Shown here: positions 15,597 to 56,259 of the stretch, piece after piece
Layout of the letters: each line of letters begins with the position of its first letter
Numbering within the stretch: the stretch's first letter is position 1
Source: Alligator mississippiensis
Taxonomy: Eukaryota; Chordata; Crocodylia; Alligatoridae
Length of the DNA: 64,000 nucleotides
Assembly: GCF_030867095.1 (NCBI RefSeq)
Contig: NC_081831.1
Span: 52,813,716 to 52,877,715, forward strand
Reading direction: 5' to 3'
Made by a program: the position numbers and the translations under genes
Notes under the pieces: generated by a model
Told to the model about the DNA's origin: nothing
What the model saw: the letters and a program-made list of their open reading frames with translations, nothing else
The model's database searches: none

Positions 15597-17496
15597 GGGC
15601 ACGTCCAAATGAGCATGCACGTGCCTCTTGCCCTGCCTCAAACCCCTTTGAGGCAGGGCAAGAGGCACGTGGTGGAATGAAAAAATATTCCCCACACTGA
15701 AAGTTTGCAGTGCGAGGAGAAAATTAGACCCCTGGATATCCAGGGGTCTAAAAAAACTGCTCCACAATAGAGCACTCCCAGACCATGCCCAGAGCCAGCA
15801 GAGAGCTGGTCCTCCAGAAGAGATGCTCTGGTTTTGCCCAGAGCATCTCTTTGGTGCTCCTGCTGCCTCCGGCACTGTCCAAGGTAAGTGTGGGGGGTTC
15901 ATGGGTGTGGGTGGGTGCTGGGTGGCAGGGAGATGTGGGGGGGGGGGGGTTGGGGAGTGGCAGGGGGGATGTCCCCGGGGCTGCGGGGGGTGAGGACCTG
16001 GCTCAGATCAGTGTGGCTCACTAGTCCAGCTTTACACTGGAGTGGGTCGCACAGCTCTGGGAGGTGCGCACAGGAGCCATGCCTCCCAGAACCGTGTGAC
16101 CCACTGCAGTGCAAACACAGACTAGAGAGCCACATGGGGCTGAGCCAGGTCCTCACCCCCCAGCAGGCACAACGGGGCAGAGGCGGAATGTGGTGCGTGG
16201 CCAGCCCTGGGGCCCGTCTGCTGCCCAGCTGGACCAGGCTTGGCCCATGGTGACAGGACCCAGCACAGCATGTGGTCACCAAGTGCTGGGCCCAGCCGGG
16301 TCCTACCACCCTTGGGGTCGCTCTGCTGCCCAGCTGGGCTGTTCCTATAGTGGCAGGGACTGCATGGAGCTGAGCTGGGTCTTGCCAGCCCTGGGGCTGC
16401 TTGTGCTATCCAGCCTGGCAGGCAGGGACTGCGCGGAGCCAAGCCAGGTCCTGCCAACCCTGGGGTTCCTCATGCTGTCTAGCTTGGCCAGGCGGCATGA
16501 GAAGCCCAAGGGCTGGAAGGACCCAATTCAGCTCCGTGTGGTCCCCACGTGCCGCGCTGGGTCCTGCCACCATGGGCCTAGCCCCACTGGGCAGCAGAGC
16601 AGCCCCAAGGGTGGCAGGACTTGGCTGGGCCCAGCCCACAGTCCCCATGTACTGTTCTGGGTCCTACCACCACGAGACTGACCCAGCTGGGCAGCAGGAG
16701 CAGCTCCAGGGCTGGCAGGACCGGGCTAGGCTTGGCGCATGGTACCCCCACTGCTGCTGCAAAAGATCAGTTATGGGACCTGGATGGGGGGGCTGGTTCC
16801 ATCTGGGGTCAGAGTGAGGCCCTACAGGGTGCCTGGGACCCAGGGAAGGGGGGCTGGGGCACACCAGGAGTGAGCTGAGACCCTGGGTAGGGGGGGGTTG
16901 GGGCCCTCCAGGTTGGAGCTGGAACTCTGGTGAGGTGGCCTCCAGGGTGCCTGGGACCCTGGGCAGGGGTGCTGTGGCCCTGTGGGGGGATAGGGGCTGT
17001 GGCCTTCCAGGGGGGAGCTGGGGCCCTGTAGGGGGAGCATTCCATGTGCTGTGGGGGGGGGGGGGGGAGCTGCACAGTGTGGGGGCCAGGGGACCCACCC
17101 CTCCTGAGAAGCCTCCCCACAAGGTCCCCCACACCACAGTCCCCCCAGCAATTGCTCCACACCTACCCATGGACCAACCCTTATTCCTCCACATGCACCC
17201 ACACACACACCTGCCTTCCCCTACACCCCTTCTTACCCTCTTCCTGCAAATCACCCCATCACACACCCATCGTGTGCAGAAAACTAAAATCACACATCAA
17301 CAGATATAGGTATTTAGAATGTATTTTTTCATGATGATAGAGACATTGGTAGGCTTCCAAATTGCTTTAACATTTTAAATATACCAATAAAGCATTACCC
17401 AACTGATTGTGCGCTCTCTCTCTCTCGTGTGTGTGTGTGTGTGTGTATGGCATGTGTGACACAAGGGGTAGTGTCCCCAGGTGCCAATTGGCTTGG
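15597..17496 (-). repeat. GC-rich 3' segment of the host element, with minisatellite and palindromic blocks
   Basis: The terminal 140 bp form a strong hairpin around the gaggcagggcaagaggcacgtg block. The next part (15750-15880) matches 43600-43760 and 56000-56110. Degenerate repeats of a gtcctgccacc/cagctgggcagcag theme fill 16250-16760. A second G-rich repeat fills 16800-17080, with a run of G near 17050. A (CT)n(GT)n microsatellite at 17414-17446 corresponds to the (AG)n at 42488-42503 in the other host copy. No coding function is evident. Confidence 0.65.
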
Positions 17497-17511
17497 CCCC
17501 AGAAGCTCCTG
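17497..17511 (-). repeat. 15-bp target-site duplication, LINE 3' side (composite 1)
   Basis: On the minus strand this reads CAGGAGCTTCTGGGG, identical to 24050-24064. The LINE-free host copy has this site once, as CAGAAGCTTCTGGAG (41964-41978). The position and near-identity define the LINE integration site. Confidence 0.78.
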
Positions 17512-17583
17512 TCTATTTGTATCCTTCAAGTGTTGTGGGCTGTAAGGCTCACCTGGCTAACTAATAGCTCCTACTGTGTGGGG

Positions 17584-20500
17584 TCAATGGGTGAAAGATA
17601 CAACAGAATTCTTGGGACAAAAAAAGGCAAAAAACAGGATAGAAGTGTTGTGTGGGTCAGAGTCAAAACATAAAAATAAGCGCCTGACAGGGACACCGAG
17701 CAGACTCCCCCTGGGCCACACCCACCAGTCCTCAAAGGCATCCAAGGAGCCAGTGGACACTGCCCACTGGTGCTCCGCCTGGAGATGTGCATGGAAAATT
17801 GAGAATAAAGTTGCCTCCCAGTCTCCAGGTATCTTCCCAGCCAGAACCTCCTTCCTGGTCAAATACAGGGCCTACTTGGCCAGGGTCAGGAGGAGGTTGA
17901 CCACGAGGTCCCAGGACTTGGTGGTGCCACAGATGGGATGACCAATAACAAAAAGGTGGGGGGTGAAATTCAACCAGAACCTCAAGAGGAGGTTAGGGAG
18001 GTGGAGGGGCTTCAGCCTGGTGCACTCATGGGTGTGCCAGGGTGTCACTCTGTCCACAGAAGAGGCAGAAGACTGGGGTGTCTGTGAAGCTCACCACATA
18101 CACGCCCAGGGCAACAGCTGCAAGGAAGAGCCACCAGCTAAGGTCCCTAGTGGCTCATGGGATGAGGGTGGAGTACAGACTCAGCCACTGGGGTGCCCCA
18201 GCCATGCCCTCTCCAAGCAGGTCATGCCACTTGGTGTCTGGGCAGGATGCGAGGGCGGCATGATGGACAGTGCAGAGCACGAGCATGTAGAGGTGACAGC
18301 AATGGACGGTGGAAAAGTGGACCGGTCTGGTGTCCTCCAGCCGGCTCAGGTGGTGAAGTGGGGAGCGCCATGAAGACGGGCAAGGCACCCTGGGTGCCCA
18401 CGACAAATTCCGGTTGGCTGGAGGAGACAGGGGGGTGGGGGCCACCACTGCACAGGGCCTCATCAACAAAGGCAAGGGCATAGGGAGGTAGGGAAGAATT
18501 CACTTCCTGGACCAGATGGCAGGTTGCATGTGTTGTGGGTAGACCCATGCTCTGGGCCAGCACAGAGGGGTCTGCCCACTCTTGCCTATCATAGTCCAGG
18601 AGGTCTCCAATAAGGGTGACACCAGCCAGGATAAACCTCTGTCACAACCGGGGCACCTCTGCCATCGGCACCTCCAGCTGGGGGTTCCACAGGAGTGGCT
18701 CGATGAGCAGATTGCATTCTGGGTGACTCTTGTGGGGGATCTGGAGGTGAAGACCAGACTCCAGGTCTGGAGGAGGTCCTGGTAGAAATCTTGCAGCCCT
18801 CACAGGTCCTTCAGGGAAAAGCCCCGCAACCTGAGGAGCTGTCAGTTGTATTGGAGTCCCTGGAAGTGGTGGAGGAAAGCGGGCCCCAAGTGGCCTCATG
18901 CTGTGTTGCTCCCAACATGGTATAGCAGTCACTGCAGGGTCTGAAGGTGAAATGCCAAGATCTGGCTGTGCAGGCAAACCAGGCTTTGGATCCCATCCCA
19001 CAAGGGGAGGCTCAGGACCTCTGCAGTGACCCAGTGCCCATCTCTGGAGTCCCGCTAGGACCTCAGGGGGCACAGGAAGGGTGTTCAAGTGTTGCCAGAG
19101 CATGGACAGGACCAACTGGTTTAGCACCAGCACTCTCCCATGCAGGGAGAGATGTTGCAGGAGCCCTGCCCATGCCCGGATCTGCTCCACCACCCTTGTG
19201 TCCAGCTGGTGCCAGTTCTCTGGCAGGGAGGGGTCTGTGGGGGACAGGTAGATGCCTAAGTAGAGCAGCGAGCCCACACCCCAGAGGATCCCATTGAGCA
19301 CAGGTGGGTGTGAACCCACCTACCACCTATCACCAACTGCCAGGCCAAAGCTCTTGACCCAGTTGACCTGGGCTGAGGTGGCTGCCAAGTACAATGCCTG
19401 GCAGGCCACCACCCCTGCCAGGTCACCTGAGTCCTGGACCATGAGGAGTATGTTGTCAGCATACGCTGATAGGACCATCTGCACCACCGGCTCCCACAGC
19501 ACCAACCCTGCCACCCACTTCTACAGGAGAACAAGGAAGGTCTCCAGGGCCAAGGCTTACAGCTGGCCTGATAGTGGGCAGCCTTGATGCACCCCTCTCC
19601 TGAATGGGATGGGATCCATCAGGGTCCAGTTGAGCTTAACCAAACATTCTGCAAAAGTGTACAGCACCTGGAGAGCCTGCATAAAGCAGAGCCCAAAGCC
19701 AAAGGCCCACAGCATGCCTGTGAGGTACCCATGATCCACTCTGTCAAACGCCGCCTCCTGGTCCAGGGATCGGAGGGCAAAAGACAGGCCCTCCCAGTGT
19801 GCTAGATCCAGGAGGTCCTGAACCAAGTACAGGTTGTCGAAAATGGAATATCTGGGCACCATGTACGTCTGGTCGGAGTGGATCATGTCTATCAGCACAG
19901 ACTGCAGGCATAGTAAGATGGCCTTTGCTACCACCTTGTAGTCCATGCAGAGGAGGGAAAAGGAACGCCAATTCCTTAGGTCATGGGGATCTCCCTTGTT
20001 CAGCAGCAGGGTCAGCACGGCACTCCAGCATGATAGGGGGAGCTCCCCACTTCCGTTGGACTCAGCCCAGACTGCAGCAAGGTCCAGACTGAGGACGTCC
20101 CAGAAAGCCTGGTAGAACTCCAAGGTCAGCCCGTCAATGCCCGGAGCCCCGTTGCCAGGCGTCAGGTGGAGGGTGGTCGAAAACTCAGCTAGAGTGAGAG
20201 GAGCTTCCAGCCAGTCCTAGTTATCCATGCTGACCTGCAGGAGTCCCTCCCTCAGGGTCTGACAGGCATCAGCATTGGTCGGGTCTAGGGAGAACAGCTC
20301 TTCATAGAAGGCCCATGTGCACTGGTGTATCTCGTTTGGATCCATGAGGGGGATGCCATCACCCACCAGAAGACAGATGATATACTTCTTGGCCCCCTGT
20401 ATCCTCTCCATGGCACAGAATAAGTGGGAGCCGTGGTCCATCTCCTGAAGGAGCTGGATGCATGAGCAGACAAATGCACCGTAGGTGCGGTGGTTGTCCA

Positions 20501-21494
20501 GAGCACAAAACTCTTCCCACCTTTCCAACACTCTCTGCAGAAGGACAGGTCAATTTGGTCGGTGGCCAGGTGCTTCTCCAGCTCTAGAACTTCCCTCTCA
20601 AGCTGCTCCTGGACTGCCTTCCTCTGTTGGGTGTGCCCCTGAGTGTAGCCACAGCAAAAATGCCTGATGCACACCTTGCCCACATCCCACCATCTCTGAG
20701 GCAAGGGGAAAGCTGTCCGTTGCTCCCATCACAATAGCCAGAACTCCCGCAATGCCACCCTGAAGCCCACATCCTCCAGCAGGCTGGCATTGAAATGCCA
20801 GTAGGCTGACCCTGGACGCTGATAAGGTGGTGGTCGCTGAAAGCGGTCGGCCAGATGCCCAGGGAAAGTGTGGCAAAGAGATATAAACCAGGTCTAACTG
20901 GGAGTGGCATGTCTGTTCTTTCCACACCCTCACATAAGTGAAGGCAGGGGGTTCACTAGGGTGACAGGCACACCAGACGTCCACCAGGGAGTAGTCCATC
21001 AGAATCTCCCCAAGGATGCCCACAGCATCCTGGTTCCACTCCTTGCCTGACCAGTCTTGCACATCTAGGGTGACGTTAAAATCCCTGGAAAGGACCAGAG
21101 ACTTGCGAGGGTTGAGGGTGCCAATATATGTGGCTTTGTGGTGGAAGAAATCCACCAACTCTGGGTCCTTAGCAGAGGCATGCATATTCAGAAGGTTCAG
21201 GACCAGCCCCTGCACCTGGACCTGGAGGTGCAGCAGATGGCCCAGAACCACCTCACCATCTTGGAGAACCTCCAGCTGCAGGCCTGGGGAGAACAGGGTA
21301 GCCACCACAGATGAAGTGGCAGAGAGGTAACTAAAAAAGACCCTGCCTCCCCACTCCAGCTGCCAATTTGGTTCATCACCTGGAGTTATCAGGGTCTCCT
21401 GCAAGAATACCATGGGATACACACCCTCCTGAAGGAAGGACAGGACCCGGCACCTCCAGAGACCCTTTCTGCAGCTGTGGATGTTGAGGGTCAT
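17584..21494 (-). pseudogene. Tx1-like ORF2 (endonuclease-reverse transcriptase), disrupted
   Basis: ORF2 of Tx1/L1-type LINEs nicks the target and primes reverse transcription. The N-terminal 230 residues (from 21494) form an APE-type endonuclease. It shows LNIHSCRKG, a QET block at residues 32-34, DFN at 138-140 and SQLDLVYIS near 198-206. The SDHH block follows in another frame near 20830, so a frameshift separates them. Reverse-transcriptase blocks follow: [14 protein letters not shown] near 19740, RGVHQGCPLSG near 19580 and AYADNILL at 19452-19463. The third block has N where active enzymes have the second D of YADD. An in-frame TAG (19521-19523) lies between the last two blocks. A CxxC...H zinc-finger region near 18045 and a GSLDAFEDWW motif near 17745 mark the C-terminus. 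Confidence 0.85.
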
Positions 21495-21915
21495 GATCTT
21501 AAATTATCTCATGGCTGGAGGGGTGGAGTAGATGGTTCAGCAGGGGCCTTGTGCATCCCAACACCCGGTTGAGGTGCCTGCTAGTTTACGTGGCACCCTC
21601 CCATATGTATAGAGGCATCTATGAAACTGCAGGCCCACTTATAGATACGGGCATTGCAGCTTTTGGGCCCCTTTCCTTCCCCCACCAGTGCCCTGGCAGT
21701 GCTGAGGACACTGTCAAAATCTCTCCAGCAGTCCAAGGCTAGCTGTACCTTTCTGGCAGACTGGCAGGTGTAGTCACAGTCAAGAAATGCAAGTAGCTCA
21801 TCTCTGTGGACCACTGGGACCGAGAGTTCTGTAGGCTCCATGGAGCCTGCTGGTACTTGGGTGTCCTTATCCTGGTCCTGGGGTCAGAGGGCTCTTTAAG
21901 CACCATTTGAACCCC

Positions 21916-23757
21916 TCAGTCTGCTAAGACCCTGAACTCTAATTGAGATTGAAAGAGCTCTGCAGCCCCCTGGGAGAAGGGTGGGGGTAATGGTGGGCGT
22001 CCTTCACAAGATTGTGGAGTAGAGCTGGAGCCCTGGGGGTTCTGTTCAGGGTCCCCAGTGAGATAGGACCATTGATTTGGGGACCCGACTGTGACACTCT
22101 GTGGTGCGGGACTATGGGGCAGGCTGGAGATGAGGTTTTCCTGGGAGAGGGAGGGAAGAGACCCACCAGGAACTGGGTTGGCTCCGGCATGTTCCTGGGA
22201 AAGGGTACTTCCTCCCTCAGAACTTACCAGGGTGAGTACCAGGGCCTACGTGTCACTTAGATCAAAGGGAGGAGGCTCTGCTGCCAGGCCTTCATTTGGG
22301 CAGGCCTCAGCCTTGGCACCCGTGGTTTCAGGGGGTAGGCCTCGGTCAGTAGAATGAAGGGCTTCCCCCATGGGCTTCTGTTCAGGACTATCCAGCAGCC
22401 ACAAAACCTTATCCATGGGGATCACCCATTTTATCGTTAACAGGGGTGGGGTGTTAGGCACATCTGGGAAGGGCCCTGGAGGCTGGGCTGCTCCTTCCCT
22501 CCACGTGTTGGTCTTAAGATGGGGAGAGGAGTCCTCCATGTTAGAGGGATCCAGCTGTGCCCAGGCCTTCCTCTTGCTTTTATGGCTGGAGGGGACCTGC
22601 ACCCACTCAGCCATGGGGTGGTCCTCAGGTGGACCGACTCCAGCAAGAGAGGGTGAGGCTTGGGGGTGGGGGCAACCACAACAGGAATATGACTAGGGGC
22701 AGCTCTCCCTTCCCCCCCCTCCGCCCCCAGTTCCTTGGGCCCAGCCTGGGACTCCACTGGACTTGGTTGGGGGGCGGGGTCCCTTGAGCTCATGGGTGGG
22801 CTCGTAGTTGTGGCTGGGGTGCCAGGGGGACCTGAGGGGGGTGAGGCACCAGTGGTAGGGGCACTCCTTTTTCCAGTGAGACCCACAGATGCCCTCCCCG
22901 CTTGCCCATGGGGCACTTATAATACAAGTGCTCCGGGGCATGGCACTGGAAGCACCGCAGGTCCCCCACTGTATAGAAAATCCTCACCAGGGCCTCCTCA
23001 TAAGGAATTACCAGGTACCCCTCAGCCGCCAGCTGCACTCCTGCCACCAGCTGGATCATGACCTGGTGACGGAAAGAGTGTATGTGGCGGAGGCTAGGGT
23101 CTCGGCACCTCAGTCAGAGGGCCACCACTGGGGAGATAACTCTCCCCAGGGTTTGGAGCTGGGGGAGTGGGGCCCAACTGGGGATATAGGGAGGGATGGA
23201 GCTGAGGACCACCCTGGTCCCCAACTCTTCTAGATGTTCAAGGGGGACATACTCACCCTCCACCATGAGCCCCCTCTCCACCACCTTTTATGCAGCAGCC
23301 TCTGAGGCCCAGAAAAAGACTCCCTTGCCATTAAGGTGGGAGGCCCCATGATCTTGGGGGCCCCCACTACAAGAGCTAGGGCCTGCACCCAGGTCTCAAT
23401 TTACAGGTTCTCCCGCTTCGGCAGTTGGCACTTCACACCATGCCTGTGGGTGAATGCTGGAAATGGGTCCCCACTGCCCAAACTGGAAAGGCCGGCTGTG
23501 GAGGGTCAAAGGCCCCTGGCTTCAGGTCTCTCCACAGCTGCCTGTGAATAGCTCCAGTTTCCCCCCCGGGGAGCCATGTTGGTGGGGCCTGAGCTAGGGC
23601 CAGGGACAGGCTGAGTGGGTGTGCTGGCTGTTGTAGTACACCTGGTCCCCTCAGGCGCTGGTGGTCTAGACTTTGGGGCAGGGCCCTTGCCCTTCCCACT
23701 CCCAGCTCTGGAGGAGGCTGAAGAGGAGCCCTTCCCACTGCCCTTGCCCTTGGTCCC
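21916..23757 (-). pseudogene. Tx1-like ORF1 (nucleic-acid-binding protein), disrupted
   Basis: ORF1 proteins of this clade bind the LINE RNA. The clearest hallmark is a CCHC zinc knuckle, C-x2-C-x4-H-x4-C, at 22913-22954 (CFQCHAPEHLYYKC). It is preceded by an IPYEEALVRIFYTVGDLR segment, as in related ORF1 proteins. Upstream, a Gly/Ser/Lys-rich stretch near 23690-23770 and a degenerate segment matching the LEAAAQKAVE region of copy 2 are visible. Frameshifts and stops break it. The N-terminus is lost through the 1.06-kb gap relative to copy 2 at about 23757. ORF1 ends around 21916, roughly 420 bp before ORF2. Confidence 0.75.
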
Positions 23758-24049
23758 TGACCGTGGCTTGGCAGCAGGGGTAAAGAAGCTGGGGTGTGGT
23801 ACTGAGGTATGGTGCAGTGCAGTGGGCCCCTCCTGGGGTGGGCAGCAGCAGCCCAAGTCAGGAAGGAGTGTGGCCAACTTACTCCAAAAGCTCTGAGACC
23901 AAGCCAGCAGATAATAGTAAACAGAGGCAGGAAAGGGCCTGGCCATCTTCTCCCCAGAAGCTCCTGAGACCAAGCTTGCAGCAACCAGCCACAGCAGCAG
24001 CATCCTGGGACAGAAAAGGGTGTGGTGAACTTCCTCCCAGAGGCTCCTC

Positions 24050-24064
24050 CCCCAGAAGCTCCTG
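24050..24064 (-). repeat. 15-bp target-site duplication, LINE 5' side (composite 1)
   Basis: On the minus strand this reads CAGGAGCTTCTGGGG, identical to 17497-17511. The flanking host sequence on its 5' side matches 41855-41963. Confidence 0.78.
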
Positions 24065-24197
24065 AGAGTGAGTATCCCTGAGCTGCTTGCCAGGGCAGCT
24101 TTTTTTTATGGATGGGACCAGGGCAGGGCAGCTTCTGGGGACAGCACAGCTGCTGGCCACAGGCTCTAGCTTCCCCTGGCTGTAGATCCGGAAGGAG

Positions 24198-24202
24198 CCA
24201 GG
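24198..24202. repeat. 5-bp target duplication (CCAGG), left of the LTR element
   Basis: CCAGG here and at 28048-28052 flanks the LTR element. The uninterrupted host at 41850-41854 has the site once, as CCTGG on the opposite strand. Confidence 0.85.
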
Positions 24203-25014
24203 TGTCACAACCTAAGGGTGTGATTTTTGTTTGTGTGTGCTTTGGCACTGCTGAATTATTTCCCAACACTCGGAGCTTTCTTTGCAGGGTGCATTTCTTC
24301 GTTGCAACAGAGAAATGCACGTTGCAAGGAGTTCCCACCATTCGTATTCAAATTCGTGCCCCACTATTGGTCAGTTCTAAATTATTCCTACGTGGCGGCT
24401 AGTGATTGGCTTGCTAGCTGTATAAGAGGCTTGAGTGGTTTCCACCCAAGTTGGAGGACTCCACGAACACCAGGAGGAGGAGACTTCACATCTCATGAAG
24501 ATCTCTAAGCGCTGCGGAGCCTATCGGACCCAGCGTGCATTTCAAGAAGGCTATAGGGGTCTGATCAACCTCTTGCCTCTCCCCATCGCCGCCTGATCCC
24601 TTGACGTACCCTTCCCTGTGCGCAAAGTTCCACGGAGCCTAGCAAACTTTGTGTGAGTGAATCCAGAGCTCTACCCGGGGTTCGAGTCCTGCAGTTTTTT
24701 TTCTTCCCGCCGCCGAAACCCCATTGCGACATACTCCTGAGGTTTCTGTTCATCTCCCGTCGCCGAAACCCCATTGCGACGTACCCATACGTTCTGCAGG
24801 TTCGAGTTTTTTGTTTTGTTTTGTAACCGCAACTCAAGCAAGTTTTCCTGCCTGCACCGCAACCATCTTCGGTGTAAGTAAAATAATCTTAAATCAACCG
24901 CTAAGCGTCCGTGCCTAATTCTAGCGTGCCGCCTGCCTTCCCCGACCCAGTGTGTCTGGGCTGCTGGCCACAGCCCGCCACGCGAAAAAGGCCTCGGACT
25001 GCTCCCGGCCCACA
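24203..25014 (+). repeat. 5' LTR (812 bp)
   Basis: It starts TGTCACAACC and ends CCCACA. Promoter-like features are two ATTGG (inverted CCAAT) boxes at 24366-24370 and 24405-24409 and a TATAAGA box at 24421-24427. A 20-bp sequence ending CCCCATTGCGAC is repeated at 24711-24730 and 24761-24780. A 10-bp inverted repeat (GTGCATTTCT at 24289-24298, AGAAATGCAC at 24311-24320) can form a hairpin. Confidence 0.85.
24421..24427 (+). promoter_or_regulatory. TATA box of the 5' LTR
   Basis: TATAAGA lies 12-16 bp downstream of an ATTGG box and is conserved in the 3' LTR at 27450-27456. The U3/R boundary would be about 25-30 bp further on. Confidence 0.55.
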
Positions 25015-25015
25015 G

Positions 25016-25678
25016 ATGGCGACAAGGATCGAATCAGGGGAAAGCACGCTGGAGCTAGAATTAGTTAAGAACTGCCCTTGGTGCAGTGGAAAATGCCAAG
25101 TAGAAAACCTTATGGAACTGGAGGTGCATATCGCTTACCACCAGGTGGGCGGAACGGGTGAGAGATTTATCAGCGGACGTCTTTTGCTGAAGGGAGAAGA
25201 GGGAGCTTCCGAAGACGGAGGCCTGAAAGAGAGGGAAGTGTATTTGCACCCCGCGGCATTCGGGTGTATAACGGGTGATGAGCGGGTCCTGTTTAGGCCC
25301 CTCGACACTGTGTCCCTCGCCAGAGTCAGCCCGGTGGACAAAGAGAACCCGTCCTTCACCCGTGAGTGTGCCCATTGCCTAAGATGTGCTCAGGAGAGTG
25401 AAGAACCGGTGCCGATCAACTGGTTCGCCCCCTTTATGCTGGCGTCTAGATTAAGGGGTCGCGAGCTTCCATCCGAGCTCCATGAAGATCTGGAGATGGA
25501 GGAACGCACCGCGGATGAGAGGGTGGCCCCACAATACGACAAGGGGGGAGTGTTAACTGCAACTTTTCGTACTGTAAATGATCTAATGCAAAAGAATTTA
25601 AGTTTGAAAGCCCAGCTGTGTATGGCCGTTCGAGCGGTCAAAGAAGCGGCTGCGAAAGAGAATCCTGAAACGCCATGA
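25016..25678 (+). CDS. Gag-like N-terminal ORF of the LTR element (220 aa)
   Basis: An open frame of 220 codons starts at the ATG only 2 nt after the 5' LTR. I chose this start because upstream ATGs in frame lie inside the LTR. The protein has a C2H2-like cluster, C20-x2-C23-x14-H38-x3-H42, with a further C27. A CxxCxxC group follows at residues 118-124, then an acidic stretch and a helical, coiled-coil-like C-terminus. No named domain is recognised; position argues for the amino part of Gag. Downstream Gag-like sequence continues in other frames, so the full protein is interrupted. The start codon overlaps the presumed primer-binding site, which is unusual. Confidence 0.55.
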   Translation: MATRIESGESTLELELVKNCPWCSGKCQVENLMELEVHIAYHQVGGTGERFISGRLLLKGEEGASEDGGLKEREVYLHPAAFGCITGDERVLFRPLDTVSLARVSPVDKENPSFTRECAHCLRCAQESEEPVPINWFAPFMLASRLRGRELPSELHEDLEMEERTADERVAPQYDKGGVLTATFRTVNDLMQKNLSLKAQLCMAVRAVKEAAAKENPETP

Positions 25679-25682
25679 CAAG

Positions 25683-26359
25683 ATGGCACCGAGCAAGAGG
25701 GAGACCGCGTGGAAGAACCGGAAGAGAAGGGTGGAGCTTCAGAGGAACCCGCGAGAGTTCGGTCAGCGACTCCACCCACTGACGCAGTGTTGTTTCCAGC
25801 GACCCCGCCCACTGACGCAGCGTCACTTTTGGCGACCACGCCTTCATGCCGACGGAGGGGAGAATCGAGCGGAGGAGTGCATCCGCCCCTCCTGCCTGAA
25901 GCAATAACAGCAGCAATGACTCCCACAGCAGTAGTCCAGCCTGTAACAACAACTAACCGAGTTGCTACTGCCTATTATGCTCGCACCAGAACTGAACTAC
26001 AGGATTTATGCAGATAATCAAGAATCCAACCTGAAGAAACTCTAGCTGTGTGGTTGTGACATTTAGTCGTGGAACTTGGATCTGATCTGCTAAACCAGGA
26101 AGAAGCAAGCTTCTTGGTCAGACAAGCTTTGTGGAGTAGAGGACATGTCACTGACATCGACATGGTAGCGGTTAATGTTCACTGGCCTATTCCACTGCCA
26201 GCGCTTGTTGCAGGACTGATCGGTCAGAAAGCCCACGCATGGCATGACGGACGGCCAGAACATACCGGCGCAGAGCATCTCATGCTAGTAATCATCGGAG
26301 TCTCGTACTGTGCCTGGAACCCCAGAGCATGTGCGCTGGGACTGACATCACTCCAGTGA
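25683..26359 (+). pseudogene. Gag/capsid-like remnant of the LTR element, frame-broken
   Basis: Two overlapping open pieces (25709-26017 and 26069-26359) lie in different frames. The first is Pro/Thr/Ser-rich, like a Gag linker, and ends in ARTRTELQDLCR. A stop follows. The next piece begins ELGSDLLNQEEASFLVRQAL and looks like the alpha-helical capsid region of retroelement Gag proteins. The assignment rests on position and general character, not on a confirmed domain match. Stop codons and a frame change make this non-functional. Confidence 0.45.
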
Positions 26360-26893
26360 ATAAGACCATGGCCTCATCGTCATCTACGAGATCCTGGAAC
26401 CGTTCCAGTGATCGTTCACAGCATAGATAGTTGTCTTGAGGTTTATGGGTGAAAGAACATCGTCGTCCTCTGGATTCTGCTTAACCCAATGGTGAACCAA
26501 CCCGTGAGTAACCTCCTTCTTCAGTTGTCCCGACTGCGTATCCTGATGAAGCCAAGAATATCCGGTGATTGGGAACGTCGACACCCGACCGAGATTCAAG
26601 GCACAAGATACTGCGAATCCGACCTTCCATCATTGCCACAGAGAACACCAGAGGAGCGATACATGTTTGAATTTCTCCTACAGTGTTCTGGACTCAATAA
26701 GCGGCAACTTCGGATTTTAGGGGACGCAGGCCAATGGCAACTGGCCTATGAGTTAGGTTTCCGTTATCTAGAAGAATTAGACGACGGCTCCTCGACGATT
26801 TCATCTAGTTGGGTGTACAAAAGAGAGTTGTTATGTTTTAGAAATGATAATGTAGTTCCATGGAAATTTTGTAAATGTTTTGTTATACGTTAA
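26360..26893 (+). other. Unrecognised interior of the LTR element, with a 134-codon open frame
   Basis: A plus-strand frame (26489-26893) encodes a charged protein containing NKRQLRILGDAGQWQLAYEL and LGFRYLEELDDGSS. I cannot relate it to pol, env or a known accessory protein. Where several kilobases of pol would be expected there is only about 0.5 kb, so this may be the scar region of a large internal deletion. Confidence 0.3.
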
Positions 26894-26905
26894 CTTATTT
26901 TTTGA

Positions 26906-27097
26906 GAGTTCTGTTTACAGATCCGGAATTCAGAGTGCGTGGTAAAGAGAAGTCCCAAGAGGGATAACACCATCGAAAGAAGTGAGGTTCTGATGCACAA
27001 CTTGGCCATGATGCCCACTGAAGCCCTGATCGTGCAGTTTTTTGTTATGAATCTAATTATATGTATATGTATTTGTGTTGGTTATTATTTGATTTGA
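26906..27097 (+). pseudogene. Short open frame ending in a hydrophobic segment (env-tail-like, uncertain)
   Basis: This 63-codon frame has no upstream start and opens directly after a stop at 26903. It has a basic patch (VKRSPKR) and ends with a strongly hydrophobic stretch, VQFFVMNLIICICICVGYYL, just before its stop. A membrane anchor at the 3' end of an LTR element would suit an Env C-terminus, but the evidence is only position and hydropathy. The following 130 bp up to the polypurine tract are non-coding. Confidence 0.25.
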
Positions 27098-27220
27098 TCC
27101 CTAGAGGACGAATTTCTTATGTTAGTGGATTTTGTGTTTACCCGTTTTGTTCGACGACCCATGATAAGACCTCTTGATTACTCGAGTGACGAGCGTGCAG
27201 CATAATTCAGCTATGCTTTC

Positions 27221-27232
27221 AGCAAGGGGGGA
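27221..27232 (+). promoter_or_regulatory. Polypurine tract before the 3' LTR
   Basis: AGCAAGGGGGGA lies directly before the 3' LTR start. This is the position where plus-strand DNA synthesis is primed in LTR retroelements. Confidence 0.75.
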
Positions 27233-28047
27233 TGTCACAACCCAAGGGTGTGATTTTTGTTTGTGTGTGCTTTGGTACTGCTGAATTATTTCCCGCCTTT
27301 GGAGCTTTCTTTGCAGGGTGCATTTCTTTGTTGCAACAGAGAAATGCACGTTGCAAGGAGTTCCCACCATTCGTATTCAAATTCGTGCCCCACTATTGGT
27401 CAGTTCTAAATTATTCCTACGTGGCGGCTAGCGATTGGCTTGCTAGCCATATAAGAGGCTTGAGTGGTTTCCACCCAAGTTGGAGGACTCCACGAACACC
27501 AGGAGGAGGAGACTTCATGTCTCGTGAAGATCTCTAAGCGCTGCGGAGCTTATCGGACCCAACGTGTATTTCAAGAAGGCTATAGGGGTCTGATCAGCCT
27601 CTTGCCTCTCCCCGTTGCTGCCTGATCCCTCAACGTACCCTTCCCTGCGCGCAAAGTTCCACGGAGCCTAGCAAACTTTGTGTGAGTGAATCCAGAGCTC
27701 TACCCAGGGTTCAAGTCCTGCAGTTTTTTTTCTTCCCGCCGCCGAAACCCCATTGCGACGTACTCCTGAGGTTTCTGTTCATCTCCCGTCACCGAAACCC
27801 CATTGCGACGTACCCATACGTTCTGCAGGTTCGAGTTTTTTGTTTTGTTTTGTAACCACAACTCAAGCAAGTTTTCCTGCCTGCTCTGCGACCATCTTTG
27901 GTGTAAGTAAAATAATCTTAAATCAACCGCTAAGCGTCCGTGCCTAATTCTAGCGTGCCGCCTGCCTTCCCCGACCCGGTGTGTCTGGGCTGCTGGCCAC
28001 AGCCCGCCGTGCAAAAAAATGGCCTTGGACTGCTCCCGACGCGCACA
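27233..28047 (+). repeat. 3' LTR (815 bp)
   Basis: It starts TGTCACAACC and ends GCGCACA. It has the same box order as the 5' LTR, including TATAAGA at 27450-27456 and the 20-bp internal duplication. Confidence 0.85.
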
Positions 28048-28052
28048 CCAGG
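28048..28052. repeat. 5-bp target duplication (CCAGG), right of the LTR element
   Basis: It is identical to 24198-24202. Host sequence resumes immediately and matches 41849-41702 on the opposite strand. Confidence 0.85.
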
Positions 28053-28202
28053 CAGGGTTATTTTGCTCCAAGTGGCACAATTTGCTCTACAACAAAGTGC
28101 ATGTCTGAGCACGTGCACTGAGGCAAAAAGCCCTGGCTTAAATTTACACCGCTTCTATTTGAGCTGCTACAAGTCCACATGCTTTCATGTGTGGACACGC
28201 CC
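28053..28202 (-). repeat. Host 5' terminal segment of composite 1
   Basis: Read on the minus strand this is the host left end. It starts GGGCGTGTCC and runs through blocks such as cagtgcacgtgctcagacatg and actttgttg. It is closely similar to 41702-41849. Confidence 0.75.
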
Positions 28203-28205
28203 CAT

Positions 28206-32671: not shown

Positions 32672-32709
<38 letters not shown>

Positions 32710-41698: not shown

Positions 41699-41963
41699 CA
41701 GGGGTGCGTCCATACATGCAAACGTGCGCTTGCAGCAGCTTAAATAGAAGTGGTGCAAATTTGAGGCAGGGCTTTTTGCGTCAGTGCACATGCTTGGACA
41801 TGCACTTTGTTGAGGAGCAAATTATGCCACTTGGGACAAAATAACCCTGCCTGGCTACTCCCAAATCTGCAGTCAGGGGGAGCTAGAGCCCAGGGCCAGC
41901 ACCTGTGCTGTCCGCAGCAGTATAAAAAGCCACCCTGGCAAGTAGCTCATAGCTACTAGCTCT

Positions 41964-41978
41964 CAGAAGCTTCTGGAG
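41964..41978 (+). other. Unoccupied Tx1-like LINE target site
   Basis: CAGAAGCTTCTGGAG matches the duplicated 15-mer around LINE copy 1 at 13 of 15 positions. Left flank matches the host before the LINE 5' end, and right flank (cccaaccaattgg) matches the host after the LINE 3' end. Confidence 0.72.
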
Positions 41979-42654
41979 CCCAACCAATTGGTTCCTGGGG
42001 ACACTACCCCTTGTGCCAGATGGACTGCTGAAGCAGCCCTGATTGTTCCCTGCACCCTTTACCCACTGCAGCAGTCTTGCAGTAGGGGCTGCTGCCTGGC
42101 TGTGACCTGTTGTGCACCTGCCAGACCCGGATGGGGACTGCAGAGCCAGTAGAGGCATCTGCCCCTCTGGGCCAGCTGCCAGTGGGCTGTGGCTGCAGAG
42201 TAGGCCTCTGTGCGGCATTACTGTCACATGTGGTCCCTGCCTGGCCATCTGGGAAGCTATCACCTGGAAGATGTTCTGGGTGTGGTGGCCTGCTTTGAAC
42301 TGTCAAAACATGTCCTCCTGGCCCCATTTGGACAGAAGGTCAGCCATAGCCAGCTGGGTCCCAGGTGGAATTCTGGTGTTCCATACTGGAAAACTGAAAA
42401 ATCCCTGATAAAAAGAATTCCAAAGTCACTCTGTAAAATACCCCAAAATCTATATTCCTCCACAAGTAAAACAAAAGACCACTATAAAGAGAGAGAGAGA
42501 GAGTGAGACAGAGACAGTGATCAGTTGGAAAATGTTTTATTGATATATCTACAGTGTAAAAGTATGTCTCTTATCATAATAATAAAGTGAATTCTAAATA
42601 CATGTTTCATGAATTCATGAACACATGAATATATATTTTGCTGCACTCCCACAG

Positions 42655-42800
42655 GGGCTAAAGCCCCCAATAGGGGCTATGGCCCCCCAAGAGGAGATTT
42701 GGTCCCCACACAGGGGTTACGGGCCCCCAACAAGGCACGGGTTACGGCCCCCCAACAGGGGTAGAGCCCCCCAACAGGGGCCAAATGGGCCCCGCAGGGG
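42655..42800 (+). repeat. Short-period minisatellite in the host interior
   Basis: Repeats of a caggggctacggccccccaa theme of 17-30 bp run about six to seven times with variation. Confidence 0.65.
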
Positions 42801-43878
42801 CTACCACCCCCTTCAAGGCCCACATACTTTACCCCAGCCCCCTGATTGCTGCCTCACCTAGACCCATCCCCCATAAGCTGCTGCAGCACCCCCGATGGCT
42901 GCCCCACCCACCCTCCCCCAGACCCCCAATGACTGCCCTGCCTGACCCCACCCCTCACTTGCACCCGCAGGCCCCCATGGCTTCCCCTATCCCAGGCACC
43001 ATCAATTTAAAGAAAAAAAAGAAAAAAAAAGGGGGGAGGAAGCCTCTACTTACACTAGAAGCAGGGGCGGGGGGGGGTCTGGGGCCTCATGGCAGAGCCC
43101 CCCCACAGGAAGCACAGGGCAGTGGGGGGCAGGAGGGCCTGGGCAGGGGCCACTGGGGCTGTCTCTCTACCCCACAGTGTGTAGGTGGGGCCCCAGTGAC
43201 ACAAATAGCAGTCAGATTGCTGGTAAATGCTGGGTTTTTTTTGTTTTCCTCTTTTAAAAATATGGGGATGCTGGGGTGGGAGGGCAGGGATCAGAGACCT
43301 TGGGGGGCAGGCAGGGGGTGAGGCCAGTCAGGGAAGTGATCAGGGAGTCTGGGGGGCAGTCGGAGGGAGGGGCTGGGCAGGGAAGTGATCGGGGCCTGGG
43401 AGGGGCAGGTGGGGGGTGGGGCAGGGCCAGGCAGGGCAGAGGTCAGGAGGCTAGTGGAGTGGGTAGGACCAGCAGTGGTCCCCGCCCATGGTCTCCTCCC
43501 CCCTCCTCCAGCTCCTTGACCCGACCTCTTATTTACTGGCCCTGGAGCCCTGGTGCTGAATGTACATGCAAGCAGGCCATGCATTTCAGCACCAGGGTGA
43601 GAGGCCAACCAGATATCCTCTGGCAGCCAGAGCATCTCCGTGGAGGACCCAGTCTCTGGTTGCCTCAGGGCATGGTCCAGGACCGTGCCCTGTCCCACTT
43701 TATTAAACTCTGGGGTTTTTTTGACCCTTGGATATTCAGGGGTCTAATTTTCTCCCCACATTGAAAACTTGCAGCGCAGGGAACATTTTTTTCATTTCCA
43801 CACATGTCTCTTGCCCCATCTCAAAGGGGTTTCAGATGGGGCAAAAGGCACATGTGTTCTCATCTAGAAGAACCCCAG

Positions 43879-44997: not shown

Positions 44998-44999
44998 TG

Positions 45000-45485: not shown

Positions 45486-45494
45486 AGACTAAAC

Positions 45495-45682: not shown

Positions 45683-45699
45683 GACTAGACAGTCATTCC

Positions 45700-47493: not shown

Positions 47494-48267
47494 AATGATT
47501 TTAGTGGAAGTGCTCACACTAGTGAAGTTAAGGTCCCAGTCCTCCAAAGCATTTAAATATGAGCACTGTGCAGCTCTTATGTGTACTATGGGCCAGATCC
47601 TTCCACCTATTAGACATATAGGTGGATTTAGGCAGGTTTGAGTGCCTGAAAAATTGTTAATACACAAGATGGTTTGGCCTTGTTGCCTTTTTATGACTTA
47701 TATCTTAAGGATCAGATAATGATGTGTTACAAAAGTAGATAAATTACTGGATTTTCAGGGACTTGAACAGGGTGAAACAAACTCACAGTTAGGTATCTAA
47801 GCTCATTTAAATGCCCATTTGGTGAATAGAATCTGGCCTATGCTGATAGAACAGAGTACTGTTATCTAAATGTGTACTTTTGTTTAAATATGAAATACTA
47901 ATCAAAGTTACTCTTGGGGTACTCTTAAAAGTCTGCTTCCTTTTAAGAAAATATTTCTTACTCTTGCAGTGGTGTTAGTTCTGTGGAGAAAAATGGAATT
48001 GGTTGAAAAAAAATGTGAGGGGTCCTCAAGAAAAAAAACAAAAGCCTATGTTAAGTTAGAACATACTAAGATGCCTGTTGGACTCTTAATCATAGTCTAT
48101 TTCTTTACAGTGAAACTGAAATATTAGAAATATTAGAAAATCTGACTAATACTGTGTATACATGAGATTTATTCTAGGGTTATGAGCTAGAGCCCAGTGC
48201 CAGCATCTGTGCTGGCTCCAGAAGCATAAAAACCTACCCTAGCAAGCAGCTCAGGGCTACTTGCTTT

Positions 48268-48282
48268 CAGGAGCTTCTAGTG
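48268..48282 (+). repeat. LINE target-site copy, 5' side (composite 2)
   Basis: CAGGAGCTTCTAGTG matches the composite 1 15-mer at 13 of 15 positions, and host sequence on its left is shared. The 3' counterpart is reduced to CAGGAG at 55189-55194, where a deletion into the host tail seems to start. Confidence 0.6.
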
Positions 48283-49376
48283 GAGGAGCCTCTGTGAGGA
48301 AGTTGGCCATGCTTCTTCCTGTCCCAGGCTGCTGCTGCTATGGCTGGTTGCTGCAAATTTGGTCTCAGGAGCTTCTGGGGAGAAGATGGCCAGGCCCTTT
48401 CCTGCCTCCTGCTGCTACTAGCAGCTGGTTTTGCCTCAGAGCTTTTGGACTACGTGGGCTGCACCCCTTCCTGCCTTGGGGGGCTGCTGCTGCTGGGTGC
48501 CCCCCCAGAAGAGGTCCTCTGCTGCACTGCACCCCAGCTTCTGCACCCCTGTTCTACCTTGCTGCCCAGCCCATTGCCAAGCCATGGTCAGAGGACAGCT
48601 TGGAGAGGGAGCCTGCGCTGCTTGTAGGCCCCTCCCACACCATCACTTCCAGAGTGTTAAGGAACCTTGCCTTCCCCAGCTGCCCTGGCAGGCCACCCCC
48701 ACCTTCACCTCCACTTTCACCAGGAGCAAGCCCTGAGTGGCTGAACTGGATGGCTCATACCATCACTGTTACTGCAGTTTCTGCTGCTTCCCCCTCTTAG
48801 GAGAGAGGGAGATTCCTTGCTGCACCACCTGACACCACACCTGCACTGGATCATTTCCTAATTGACTGACTGCTCCCACCTTTCCCCACAGCTACCTTAC
48901 TGCATCTAATCCTGATTTGTCTTACTACTTACTGCTCTGCTGCTGAGTGACTGGCTGGAGGCTTGAGGGGCTTCTGGACAGATCTTTCACAAACAAAGCC
49001 CCTCCATTGCTCCAGCCATCTTTCACATCTGCCTCAGCAGCCTTCCCTGTGTGTTTTTTGCCTTTGTGTGGTAAGTCCTGTGGTCCACTCCCCCTGACCT
49101 GGCATTTGTTGTGTGGCTCAGTAAGCTAGCTTGAGCTTCCCCAGCCCTTGTGTGTCCCCCCCCCCCGGTCCCACATTCTTAAAGCATAGGCCTCCATTTT
49201 TTGGTTTTGTGTTTTGTTTTTGTTTTTTTCATGCAGAGCTATGGCTAAGTGAGCTTCAGCTCCCTTCCTCCCTATCCCCTTTCTGCCCCACAACCCCAGC
49301 CTGCCCCTACTAGATTCACCAGCCCCATGGGATATTTTCTTTTTCTTTATTGTCTTCCCTGCCCTCATATGAAACA

Positions 49377-51400: not shown

Positions 51401-51831
51401 CTAGAGTCTGGGGTCTTAACAGACTGGGGGGTTCAAATGGTGCCTAATGAGCCCTCTGACCCCAGGACCAGGATAAGGACACCCGAGTACCAGCAGGCTC
51501 CATGGAGCCTGCAGACCTCTCGGTTCTACTGGTCCCCAGAGATGAGCTAGTTGCATTTTTTGACTGTGACTGCACCTGCCGGTCTGCCAGCAGGGTACAG
51601 CTAGCCTTGGACCTCTGAGGAGATTTTGACAGCATCCTCAGCACTACAAGGGCACTGGCAGGGAAAGGCAAGGGGCCTAAAAGCTGCAATTCCCAGATCT
51701 ATAGGTGGGCCTGCAGTTTCATAGATGCCTCTATACGTATGGGAGGGTTCCACATAAACCAGCGGGCCTCACACCAGGTATTGAGATGCATGAGGCCCCT
51801 TCTGTACCATCTACTCCACACCCCCCCAGGC

Positions 51832-54800
51832 ATGATGTCATTTAAGATTGCAACCCTCAATGTCCATGGATGCAGGAAAGGTCTCTGGAGGTGCCGGGTG
51901 TTCTCCTTCCTTCAGAAGGGAGGGTGACCCATGGTATTCTTGCAGGAGATCCTGATGACTCCAGCTGACAAGCGAAATTGGTGGCTGGAATGGGGAGGTA
52001 GGGTCTTTTTTAGTCACCTGTCAGTCACCTTATGCTGGGTGGCCACCCTGTTCTCCCCACACCTGCAGCCGGAGGTATCCAGGGCATTGAGGTGGTGCTG
52101 GGCTGCTTGCTGCACCTCTAGATCAAGGTACAGGGGCTGGTCCTGAACTTTCTGAATGTGTACACCCCTTGAGGGACCCGGAGTTGGCAGATTTCTTCCA
52201 CCAGGTGGCCACATAAATCAGCAATCTCTAGACGACCACCACTCCCACAGTCCATTTGTCCGGTCGTACATTCAGCTCCTTTGGGGGTGGATCGTGTCTC
52301 CCACTTCTTCTATTCCCTGGAGAGGAGGTGGGGGGCCACGAAGTACATCAACTGCCTTCTGGTGGGTGATGGCACCTCCCTCATGGATCCAGGTGAGATG
52401 TGCCAGAATGCACAGGTCTTTTTCAAAGAGTACTTCTCTCTGGATCCAAACAATGCTGAAGTCTGTCAGACCCTGTGGGAGGGACTCCTGCAGGTCAGCA
52501 TGGGGAACCAGGACCAGCTGGAAGCTCCTCTCACTCTGGCTGAGTTTTTGGCCGCCCTCCTCCTGGTGCCTGCAACAAGGCTTCAGGCATTGATGGGCTG
52601 ACCTCAGAGTTCTACCAGGCTTTCTGGGTCATCCTCGGTCTGGACCTTGCTGCAGTCTGGGCTGAATCTGAGGGAAGTGGGGAGCTCCCCCTGTCATGCT
52701 GGAGGGCTGTGCTGACCCTCCTGCTGAAGAAGTGAGATCCCCCATGACCTAAGGAATTGGCATCCCCTGTCCCTTCTCTGCCTAGACTACAAGGTGGTAG
52801 CAAAGGCCATCTTGCTGTGCCTGTTGTTCATGCTGATGGATTTGATCCATCCTGACCAGATGTACACAGTACCCTGATGTTTCATCTTCAACAACCTGTA
52901 CCTGGTTCGGGGCCTCCTGGAGCTAGCACACTGGGACGACCTGTCTTTTTGCCCTCCTATCCCTGGACCAGGAGAAGGCATTTGACAGAGTGGATCATGG
53001 GTACCTCGCTGACACACTGCAGTCTTTTGGCTTTGGGCCCCGCTCTGTGTGGGCTCTCCCAGGTGCCTTAGGCCTCTACAGAATGTTTGGTCAAGCTCAA
53101 CTGGACCCTGATGGAACCCATCCTATTCAGGAGAGGGGTGCGTCAAGGCTGCCCACTGTCAGGTGAGCTGTATTCCTTGGTCCTGGATCCCTTCCTTGTT
53201 CCCCTGTAGAAGTGGGTGGTGGGGTTGAATTTCCAGGAGCTGGCAGTGCAGATGGTCCTGTCAGCATATGTGGACAACATACTCCTCATTTTCCAGGACT
53301 TGGGCAACATGATGCAGGTGGAGGTCTGCCAGGCACTGAACTCAGTGGCCCCCTCTACCTAGGTCAACTGGGTCAAGAGCTTTGGTCTGGTGGTGGGTGA
53401 TGGGTGGCAGGTGGGCTTACTCCCACCTCTGCTAAATGGGATTTGCTGGAGCACCACCTTACTGCTCTACTTGGGGGTCTACCTGTCCCCCAAAGACCCC
53501 TCCCCACCAGAGAACTGGCACCAGCTGGAGGCAAGGGTGAGCAGCTCTGAGCATGGGCAGGGCTCCTGCAATGTCTCTCCCTGTATGGGAGAGTGCTGGT
53601 GCTGAACCAGATGATCCTGTCCATGCTCTGGCACTGCTTGCACACCCTGCCTGTGCTTCCTGAGGTCCTGGTGGGACTTCAGAGATGGGTGCTGGATTTT
53701 TTCTGGCAGGGGTGGCACTGGGTTGCTGCAGAAGTCCTGAGCCTCCCCTGTGGGAGGGCAGCCAGGGCTTGGTTTGCATGCACAGCCAGGTCTTGGCATT
53801 CTGCTTTCAGGCCCTACAGTGACTGCTATACAGTGTCGGTGGCCATGCGGCATGAGGCAACTCGGGCACACTTTCTGTGGCCACTTCTTGGGGATCCAAT
53901 ACAAATGACAGCTCCTCAGCCTGCAGGGATTTTCCCTGCAGGACCTGTGAGGGCTGCCAGATTTCTACCAGGACTTCCTCCGGGTGTGGAGGCTTGTCTC
54001 TGCCTCCAGGTCCCCTGCAACAGTCGCCTAGGGTGCCGACCTGCTTGTTGACCCCCCCCCCTGGATTCCTCAGCTAGAGGTGCCAACAGCAGAGGTGCCC
54101 CGGTTACGGCAGAGGTTGATCCTGGCTGGTGTCACCCTTATTCAAGACCTCCTGGACTATGATAAGCAGGAGTGGGTGGACCCTGCTGTGCTGGCCTGGT
54201 ACATTCATCTACCCACGACACATGCAACCTGCCATCTGATCCAGGAGGTGAAATCTGCCCTACCTCCTGATGCCCTTGTCTTTGTTGATCAGGTCCTATG
54301 CAGTGGCAGCCCCCACCCCCCTGTGTCCTCCAACCCACTGGAGTTTGTTGTGGGGCCGGCGCCTCACCCAGCTTCACAGCGCTCCCTGCTGTCCCACCTG
54401 AGCTGGCTGGAGGTCACCAGCCTGATCCACTTTTCCACCGTCCATTGCTACCACCTCTACATGCTCATGTATCGCATTGTCCATCATGCCACCCTCATGT
54501 CCCACCCAGACACCAAGTGGCTGGACCTGCTCGGTAAGGGCATGGCTGGGGCACCCCAGGGGCTGAGTCTGTACTCCACCCTCATCCCACAAGCCACTGG
54601 AGACCTCAGCTGGTGGATCCTCTATGAAGCCATCACCATGGGCATGTAAGTGGTGAGTTTCATGGACACCCTGGTCTCCTGTCCCTTCTGCGGGCAGTGG
54701 GAGACCCTGGTGCACATGAACCTCAAGTGTGCCAGATTGCAGCCCCTCCATCTCCCTAACCTCCTCTTGAGGTTCTAGTTGAATTTCACCTCCCATGTCT

Positions 54801-55143
54801 TTGGTCACCCCATCTGTAGCCCCACCAAGTCCCGGACCTCCTGGTCAACTCGCTCCTGGCCCTGGCCAAGTGGGTCCTATACCCCTGCAGGGTGCTCAGA
54901 GACTGTGGGGCCACTTTCCTTTCCCTTCTCCATGCGCATTTCTTGGCAGCGCACCAATGGGCAACATCCACTGGATCCTTGGATGCCTTTGAGGACTGGT
55001 GGGTGCAGTCTGGGGGGGGCTCTGCTTTGTGTCCCCCACGGGTGCACTTACTTTCATGTTTTGACCTTCTGACCCACACAACACTCCTATCCTGTTTCTT
55101 CATTGGTTGTTCCAAGTATTCTGTTGTAACATTCACCCATTAG
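51832..55143 (+). pseudogene. Tx1-like ORF2 (endonuclease-reverse transcriptase), disrupted
   Basis: It starts with MMSFKIATLNVHGCRKG at 51832, and the QEI block (equivalent to QET) follows at about 51943. The catalytic C-terminal half of the endonuclease, with the DFN and SDHH blocks, is deleted near 52215-52250. Reverse-transcriptase blocks are [14 protein letters not shown] near 52966, [11 protein letters not shown] near 53138 and AYVDNILL at 53264-53287. The YxDD box (53267-53278) reads YVDN. An in-frame TAG at 53207-53209 sits at the same place as in copy 1. A CCHC-type finger CPFC-x7-H-x4-C (54680-54730) and GSLDAFEDWW near 54977 mark the C-terminus. Frameshifts near 52940 and elsewhere complete the inactivation. 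Confidence 0.85.
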
Positions 55144-55194
55144 CCTCCATAAAATAGTAGCTATTCGTTAGCCAGGTGGACCTTTGGGCAGGAG

Positions 55195-56259
55195 GGTCAC
55201 AATCCCCCCCTCCCCCCCGATGCAGGTCCCCAGCTTCTTTCTGCAGGGCCACAGCCCCCCCCCCCCCCACACACACACACAGGGCCCATAACTTACCTCC
55301 TGAAGCAGGGACTGTGCCAGTAGAGTCTGACAGAGTTTGAGCTGTTTGCCAGGGCCACTCATGCCACCAGGCTGGCCCGGTCCCATGGCAGCAGGACCCA
55401 GCATGGTGTGCAGGGACCGCATGCCGAGCTGTGTCAGGTCCTGCTAGCACAAGGGCCACTTATAGCACCAGGCCAGCCTGGTGCTTGCCACCCCTCAGCT
55501 CTGCATGGGCTCCCACATGCCTGCCCCCTCACCTGGCCCCAGCAGCGCCGGCAGCAGCAGGCAACATGGCTGTGGCTGTGACTCTGCTGCAGGCATAGGT
55601 AGGCAATGATGCGGTGCTGTGTGACCCAGACTCCTGCATGCTGAATGGACCCAGCCCAGCCCATTAAAGGCTGTGCACTAGCAGGCTGGGCTGGATCAAT
55701 TCAGCATGTAGGGGCCTGGGTCACACAGCACTGCATCACTGCCCACCTGTACCTACAGCAGAACCACAGCTATGCTGCCTGCTGCCTCCAGTGCCATGGG
55801 GGCTGAGTCAGGGGGCAGGCATGTGGCAGACCCTGTTCAAGCCCCTCCATGTCCCCACCCACTGGGACATCCCCCTCCTGCCACTCTCCACACCCCCTGA
55901 CACCTTCAACCACTCCCCATAGCCCCCAAGAACCCTGTCCACACCCAACACCCCCCCTGGATCTCCTTGCCACTCACCACCCCATTCCCTAACTTACCTT
56001 GGACAGAGCCAGGGTCAGCAGGAACACCACAGAGATGCTCTGGCCAAAACCAGAGCATCTTTTCTGGAGGACTGACTCCTGTGTTGCCTCCAGGCATGGT
56101 CTGGGTCTGTGCCTTGCCGACTGTTCTGTGGAGCGTTACTTATTTTATTTTATTTTTTTTTTTACCCCTATTTTTACTTTCCTGCATGTGCCTCTTGCAG
56201 TGTCTGAAAGGGTTTTGAGACACTGCAAAAGGCACGTGCATGCTGATTTGGACACGCCC
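55195..56259 (+). repeat. GC-rich host tail with intact right terminus (composite 2)
   Basis: C runs and degenerate GC-rich repeats fill 55195-55980. The stretch 56000-56110, with ccagagcatcttttctggag, matches 15790-15860 on the opposite strand. The final hairpin (cctcttgcagtgtctgaaag and its near complement) leads into GGACACGCCC. Confidence 0.65.

Follow-up and report, generated by a model that had tools for sequence, protein, structure and literature searches.

Do the two LINEs in this stretch of the Alligator mississippiensis genome share a position because the element recognizes one site in a DNA transposon, or because a single insertion was copied together with its host? Within the window, by which we mean the whole analysed stretch of 64,000 nt, we found three copies (A, B and C) of one TIR DNA element, whose ends read GGGCGTGTCCA or similar. 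Host copy A (15597-28202, minus strand) has the TIRs GGGCGTGTCCA and GGGCACGTCCA, is flanked by a 3-bp duplication ATG (CAT on the plus strand) and carries LINE A (17512-24049, minus strand), which, as originally proposed, lies between identical 15-mers: CAGGAGCTTCTGGGG is found on its 5' side at 24050-24064 and on its 3' side at 17497-17511, both on the minus strand and identical to each other in 15/15 positions, with the right side of the host following the latter. Host copy C (41702-43875, plus strand, 3-bp duplication CAG on its flanks) is empty and has the site just once (41964-41978, plus strand, CAGAAGCTTCTGGAG) with host sequence on both sides, again as in the original observation. LINE B (48283 to ~55184, plus strand) begins directly behind the 15-mer CAGGAGCTTCTAGTG (48268-48282), with which the left arm of host copy B (48184-48282, plus strand) ends, and the right terminal arm of this host including its TIR follows at 55992-56259 on the plus strand.

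Some details of this picture had to be amended. The left arm of host B is truncated and has no TIR, and while the left junction of LINE B is intact, its 3' junction is deleted, so that the right duplication cannot be read. Host A carries LINE A as described but additionally holds an LTR element (24203-28038). Both ends of LINE A are complete, but ~1.06 kb near its 5' end is missing in comparison to LINE B, and other copies also show extra length at this point; LINE B for its part has lost ~613 bp between endonuclease and reverse transcriptase. The two LINEs are 79.7% and 81.1% identical in two long BLAST segments. The presence of two LINEs at one site is confirmed, but the 15-mer also occurs inside each of them, in LINE A at 23952-23966 (minus strand), where it forms the head of the second 5' monomer, and in LINE B at 48366-48380 (plus strand) as seen by sequence comparison within the window.

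The LINE encodes an endonuclease and a reverse transcriptase, and its copies are decayed. The reverse transcriptase piece of LINE A (19560-20216, minus strand) matches PF00078 (2.5e-13) and, of the proteins with solved structures, L1 ORF2p comes closest to it (4.9e-19), with R2 proteins at 0.04 or worse; no relatives of it were confirmed in viral contigs. For the apurinic-type endonuclease piece (20601-21503, minus strand, 301 aa) there was no Pfam match up to 0.1, and it matches L1-type endonucleases, the best solved match being 2v0r 'LTX' (1.8e-6), which we take to be the L1 endonuclease with the Tx1L hairpin, compared with 1e-3 for wild-type L1 itself. The extra stretch that aligns in LTX is TYVRV...S+D, and other LINE copies show FTYVRVGEEQACHSRLD or something close to it at this position. 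Judged from these matches the protein is L1/Tx1-like. The ORF2 region of LINE A spans ~1,090 codons and the longest stop-free frames in LINE direction among 20 long copies do not exceed 590 codons; the family looks old and, as far as sampled, dead. Between LINE A and LINE B there is an excess of differences at third codon positions (P 0.019 for the whole segment, 0.034 for positions 2547-4490 and 0.0025 when LINE positions 5001-5240 are left out because of their uncertain frame), and this modest excess weakly suggests divergence in an active lineage.

In order to see where this LINE resides elsewhere, we drew samples from the window's own assembly (2.35 Gb), which comprise best-scoring copies and are no census. 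With the last 389 bp of LINE A as a host-free query, the best 40 of 1660 first-look candidates were scored and 261 bp were read at the 39 copies other than the window's own. The target was present at the 3' junction in 38/39 of these best-scoring copies: 36/39 have it directly with at least 12/15 matching bases, in L064 a short repeat of the LINE end precedes it, and L054 reads CAGGAG followed by host, L038 being the sole copy without it. Host sequence stands behind the target in 33/39; the script found the host right side at 25/41 or better after 31/39 LINE ends, and L031 and L059 were recognized by eye as host continuations with deletions. Three further LINEs (L035, L047 and L048) run into the 5' end of another LINE, L055 runs into a LINE 3' part and L036 into something else. 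As shuffled flanks reached the host-match threshold in 0/1950 cases, a single site at 38/39 LINE 3' ends is more than chance would give.

For the opposite end, the first 297 bp of LINE A, again free of host sequence, served as query, and of the best 40 of 535 candidates 39 copies were read besides the window's own. In 37/39 the LINE is preceded by the host left arm, and in 2/39 (L078 and L094) the 3' end of a LINE takes its place. In 35/39 a stretch matching 12 or more of the 15 target bases sits 13-17 bp upstream of where the LINE begins, and in L083, L085 and L093 the duplication and the target-like head of the LINE appear to be fused into one copy. We use this position-restricted count because the first 15 bases of the LINE itself match the target in 12/15 positions, for which reason an earlier count of 39/39 copies with at least 11/15 of the target was dropped. 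Both junctions of the same insertion were followed in 20 long copies, the best 20 of 39 other matches to a query that included host sequence. Both ends lie within ~10 kb in 10/20 of them, target-like sequence is found at both, and 9/10 continue into host; the two most continuous copies, L011 and L022, measure ~7.6-7.7 kb from end to end with no large interruption. Left and right duplications of one copy (0.903) resemble each other no more closely than duplications taken from different copies do (0.901; 11 copies). These samples bear out the proposal of a target-specific LINE residing in a DNA transposon, with 3' ends at the site in 38/39 copies elsewhere, and speak against a LINE found mostly in unrelated flanks, as 37/39 of the 5' ends lie behind host and the other two behind a LINE.

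The strictness of the main 3' query is not shared by all relatives. Using the 3' end of L013 as query for a diverged subfamily, we scored the best 40 of 971 candidates and read 38, omitting the query's own place and one place already counted. Here 29/38 are located at the site, which makes the end specificity of this subfamily looser than the 38/39 seen above, and LINE subfamilies with unlike 3' ends have the site in common. By script, 20 of the 38 lead into host, 8 show the site only and 1 is joined to the 5' end of a LINE, whereas the site is missing from the other 9. When the sequences were read by eye, L134, L136 and L159 from the site-only group also looked like host with deletions, and among the site-less copies L139, L151 and L156 stop short of the last bases of the LINE. 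The remaining six (L129, L147, L148, L150, L152 and L162) all go on with CAGG, which may be a relaxed core target or the last bases of the LINE itself.

Host copies lacking the LINE, which the original prediction had suggested searching for, are plentiful. With regard to empty sites and INDEPENDENCE, two site-spanning queries each found 40/40 scored places uninterrupted, one in each of two host subfamilies. The first query was the site region of host C (best 40 of 2586 candidates, C among the 40); all 40 scored places span the site LINE-free and 10/10 of those read run through it. The second was made from the joined flanks of one LINE-bearing copy (best 40 of 3500 candidates); all 40 match it unbroken and 20/20 of those read run through the site. 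The right flanks of the host fall into two types, I and II, and the left arms differ by a spacer of ~32 bp. All 20 empty sites read from the second query are of type I with the long spacer, the 10 read from the first are of type II with the short spacer, and host C is of type II. Besides window copy A, type I accounts for 20 LINE-bearing copies (in 21 rows, since L052 and L023 are a single locus) and type II for 17, and a further 10 are untyped. Filled examples of type I with the long spacer are L073/L063 and L090/L057; those of type II with the short spacer are L010, L011, L014 and L026. The 15-mer does recur within the LINE 5' end, as would be expected if the supposed host 5' sequence were really the LINE's own 5' UTR and always linked to it, yet the left arm joins the right arm LINE-free in 40/40 scored places with each of the two queries, window copy C included, so that we regard this reading as refuted and give it practically no chance.

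We therefore consider it highly probable that this is a non-LTR retrotransposon of the L1/Tx1 kind that is site-specific, measures ~7.6-7.7 kb in its two most continuous copies and has repeatedly inserted at the same site of a TIR DNA transposon present in many copies. The original prediction had offered as its own alternative that one insertion was spread as cargo of the DNA transposon, the common site reflecting descent of a composite element, and several observations agree with this: the divergence of the LINE is about as great as that of the host arms (0.158-0.180 versus 0.181-0.203), both being star-like, Mantel tests of LINE against host are not significant (P 0.47, 0.25 and 0.06), a host-arm tree with one LINE-bearing clade is unrejected (AU p 0.46), and the LINE label is clustered on the host tree, with 16 changes against a shuffled mean of 24.5. 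However, host type I with the long spacer (20/20 read) and type II with the short spacer (10/10 read) both occur empty and both are also filled, so that a single insertion would need to be older than both types and to have disappeared cleanly from numerous copies later. Junctions between two LINEs at the target (3/39, 2/39 and 1/38 in the three samples), LINE subfamilies with different 3' ends at one site and the third-position excess between LINE A and LINE B (P 0.0025 to 0.034) also stand against it. Since filled LINEs occur in two host types that are also found empty, and since LINEs stand in tandem, spread from one insertion is disfavoured and in our judgement very improbable, even with one clade unrejected, and besides repeated insertion filled hosts may to some extent have been copied as well. 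Two arguments were set aside in this context. The host tree, which has no starred branch and 16 label changes, was not used as evidence for independent insertion in view of the 16 changes versus 24.5 and the AU p of 0.46, and the LINE was not taken to be younger than its host, as its first 215 bp are less diverged than the host arm (0.119 versus 0.196) but its body does not look younger (0.158-0.180 versus 0.181-0.203).

For repeated insertion the junctions suggest a course of events. The first nick would be made in the bottom strand just before CAGG (CTCT^CAGG; site sequence CTCTCAGGAGCTTCTGGGGCCCAGCC), as marked by the upstream end of the duplication, and the 3' end of the RNA (...AAATAGA) would be reverse transcribed from this nick. 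A second cut would follow 15 bp downstream, as marked by the downstream end of the duplication. Recognition would involve the upstream flank and the 15-mer, and host sequence downstream of the 15-mer is apparently not needed, because LINE-LINE tandem junctions lack it. Such a scheme, read from the junctions, would agree with target-primed reverse transcription.

The LINE 5' end itself deserves attention. In a majority sequence built from the sampled copies, its first 15 bases match the target in 12/15 positions (5e-5 for a shuffled start) and positions 84-98 match it in 15/15 (0/5000 shuffles); a degenerate third copy lies further on, and the stretches behind the copies align as monomers. These target-like 15-mers imply that the LINE carries its own target. 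The target-headed monomers may help the cDNA end to join and pair with the target, or they may be a record of earlier head-to-tail insertions. More tentatively, we suggest that the LINE brings its own landing site: with its target-headed monomers and a 15-bp target regenerated at the 5' junction upon each insertion, it could insert head-to-tail upstream of itself, perhaps gaining monomers, and so renew its target inside another transposon, while a motif in the host arm might supply a promoter. We think this less likely than not. The consensus of the host arm contains a TATA- or TACAAAA-like motif that precedes the first base of the LINE by 58 bp, and its use as a LINE promoter is only a guess. 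A clean TATA box at this place, which an early consensus had given as TATAAAAAG, was discarded, as 23 of 45 arms read ACAAAA and 15 ATAAAA.

What kind of transposon is the host? We inspected both ends of 15 host copies and saw a 3-bp duplication in 10 of them (ATG, CAG, CTA, ATG, TTC, TAT, TGT, AGA, TAA and TAA), L022 being counted after a one-base shift. In the other 5/15 the script recognized no clean duplication, be it of 3 bp or of TA; L015 reads TTA/TAA, and in L025, L097, L099 and L101 one or both ends are poorly located. The TA target-site duplication that is the hallmark of mariner was thus not what we found in these copies, 10/15 having 3 bp. The host has TIRs and its ends read GGG, and host C contains a weak Myb/SANT-like remnant (42159-42377, minus strand; Myb_DNA-bind_4, E 0.019, 15.8 bits versus a cut-off of 27 and hence under the Pfam threshold). 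PIF/Harbinger elements encode a Myb/SANT-like protein besides their DDE transposase. Together with the 3-bp duplications these sequence features fit a PIF/Harbinger-like element better than a mariner.

This bears on whether the LINE has already been described. PMC5753468 reports sequence-specific Tx1 elements in crocodilians, citing Kojima 2015. The present LINE would share with such a family the Tx1 type and the location on a DNA transposon, probably in the same animal group. Kojima's 2015 paper in Genome Biol Evol reportedly describes the crocodilian family Tx1-Mar as preferring Mariner-N4_AMi, and mariners make TA duplications. The 3-bp duplications in 10/15 host copies argue that the host here is probably not Mariner-N4_AMi, and we hold it unlikely that the LINE is Tx1-Mar. 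Another parallel comes from Xenopus laevis, where Christensen et al. (2000 and 2001) reportedly described Tx1L and Tx2L in the DNA elements Tx1D and Tx2D. As in those, an L1-like LINE with an apurinic-type endonuclease occupies a single position in a TIR DNA transposon whose copies occur both empty and filled, and the putative endonuclease hairpin of the present LINE resembles the LTX chain. Target and host are different, Tx1D being a TTAA (piggyBac-like) element, compared with 3-bp duplications here. RNA genes or microsatellites are the targets of many target-specific LINEs reported so far, and such LINEs serve as models for targeted gene insertion. Keno, a member of the Tx1 clade, targets U2 snRNA genes according to PMC4640811; it has in common with the present LINE the apurinic-type endonuclease and a strict target, which is an RNA gene instead of a transposon. 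The same source describes reported target-specific families as mostly early-branched, Tx1 or R1, the last two having apurinic-type endonucleases, PMC3747384 places the Tx group with its target-specific insertion within the L1 clade, and PMC8869645 mentions LINEs that target 'other TEs'. Our literature search found no publication on the present pair of LINE and host, the likeliest papers lying outside its reach, and the LINE belongs to a known kind of target-specific element and has, so far as could be checked, a new target.

In summary, finding a further L1/Tx1-like LINE whose target is itself mobile suggests that the lineage has colonised DNA transposons more than once. The family is old, abundant and resolved in unusual detail. 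Its numerous filled and empty sites, its LINE-in-LINE junctions and the contrast between a strict and a looser subfamily may show which portion of the target is recognized and how specificity comes to be relaxed.

The left arm of host copy A, a TIR DNA element carrying the LINE, contains an LTR element at 24203-28038, which is flanked by a 5-bp duplication (CCTGG) and possesses two LTRs of about 805 bp each with TG...CA termini, showing 95% identity to one another and separated by about 2.2 kb. A Pfam search with the 255-aa frame of this element (24911-25678) gave no match. In the right terminal arm of the same host copy, positions 15618-15671 form an inverted repeat whose two 25-bp halves match perfectly across a 4-base loop, and host copies B and C carry a similar hairpin. 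Elsewhere in the window, a 1.5-kb stretch (7074-8522) shows a 73% match to its own reverse complement, and the TIR-like sequence GGGTGTGTCCACACGTGTG at position 12411 may mark one terminus of a related DNA element.

In L012, a copy of the LINE sampled elsewhere in the assembly, the 5' region includes a second reverse-transcriptase frame (1644-3014, 457 aa; PF00078 match, 3.1e-30) that differs from the LINE's own and probably represents a separate LINE inserted there. In two further sampled copies, L055 and L144, the LINE 3' end is followed by the target and then by a piece of LINE 3' region, an arrangement that would be expected if the same target had already been occupied by a 5'-truncated copy.
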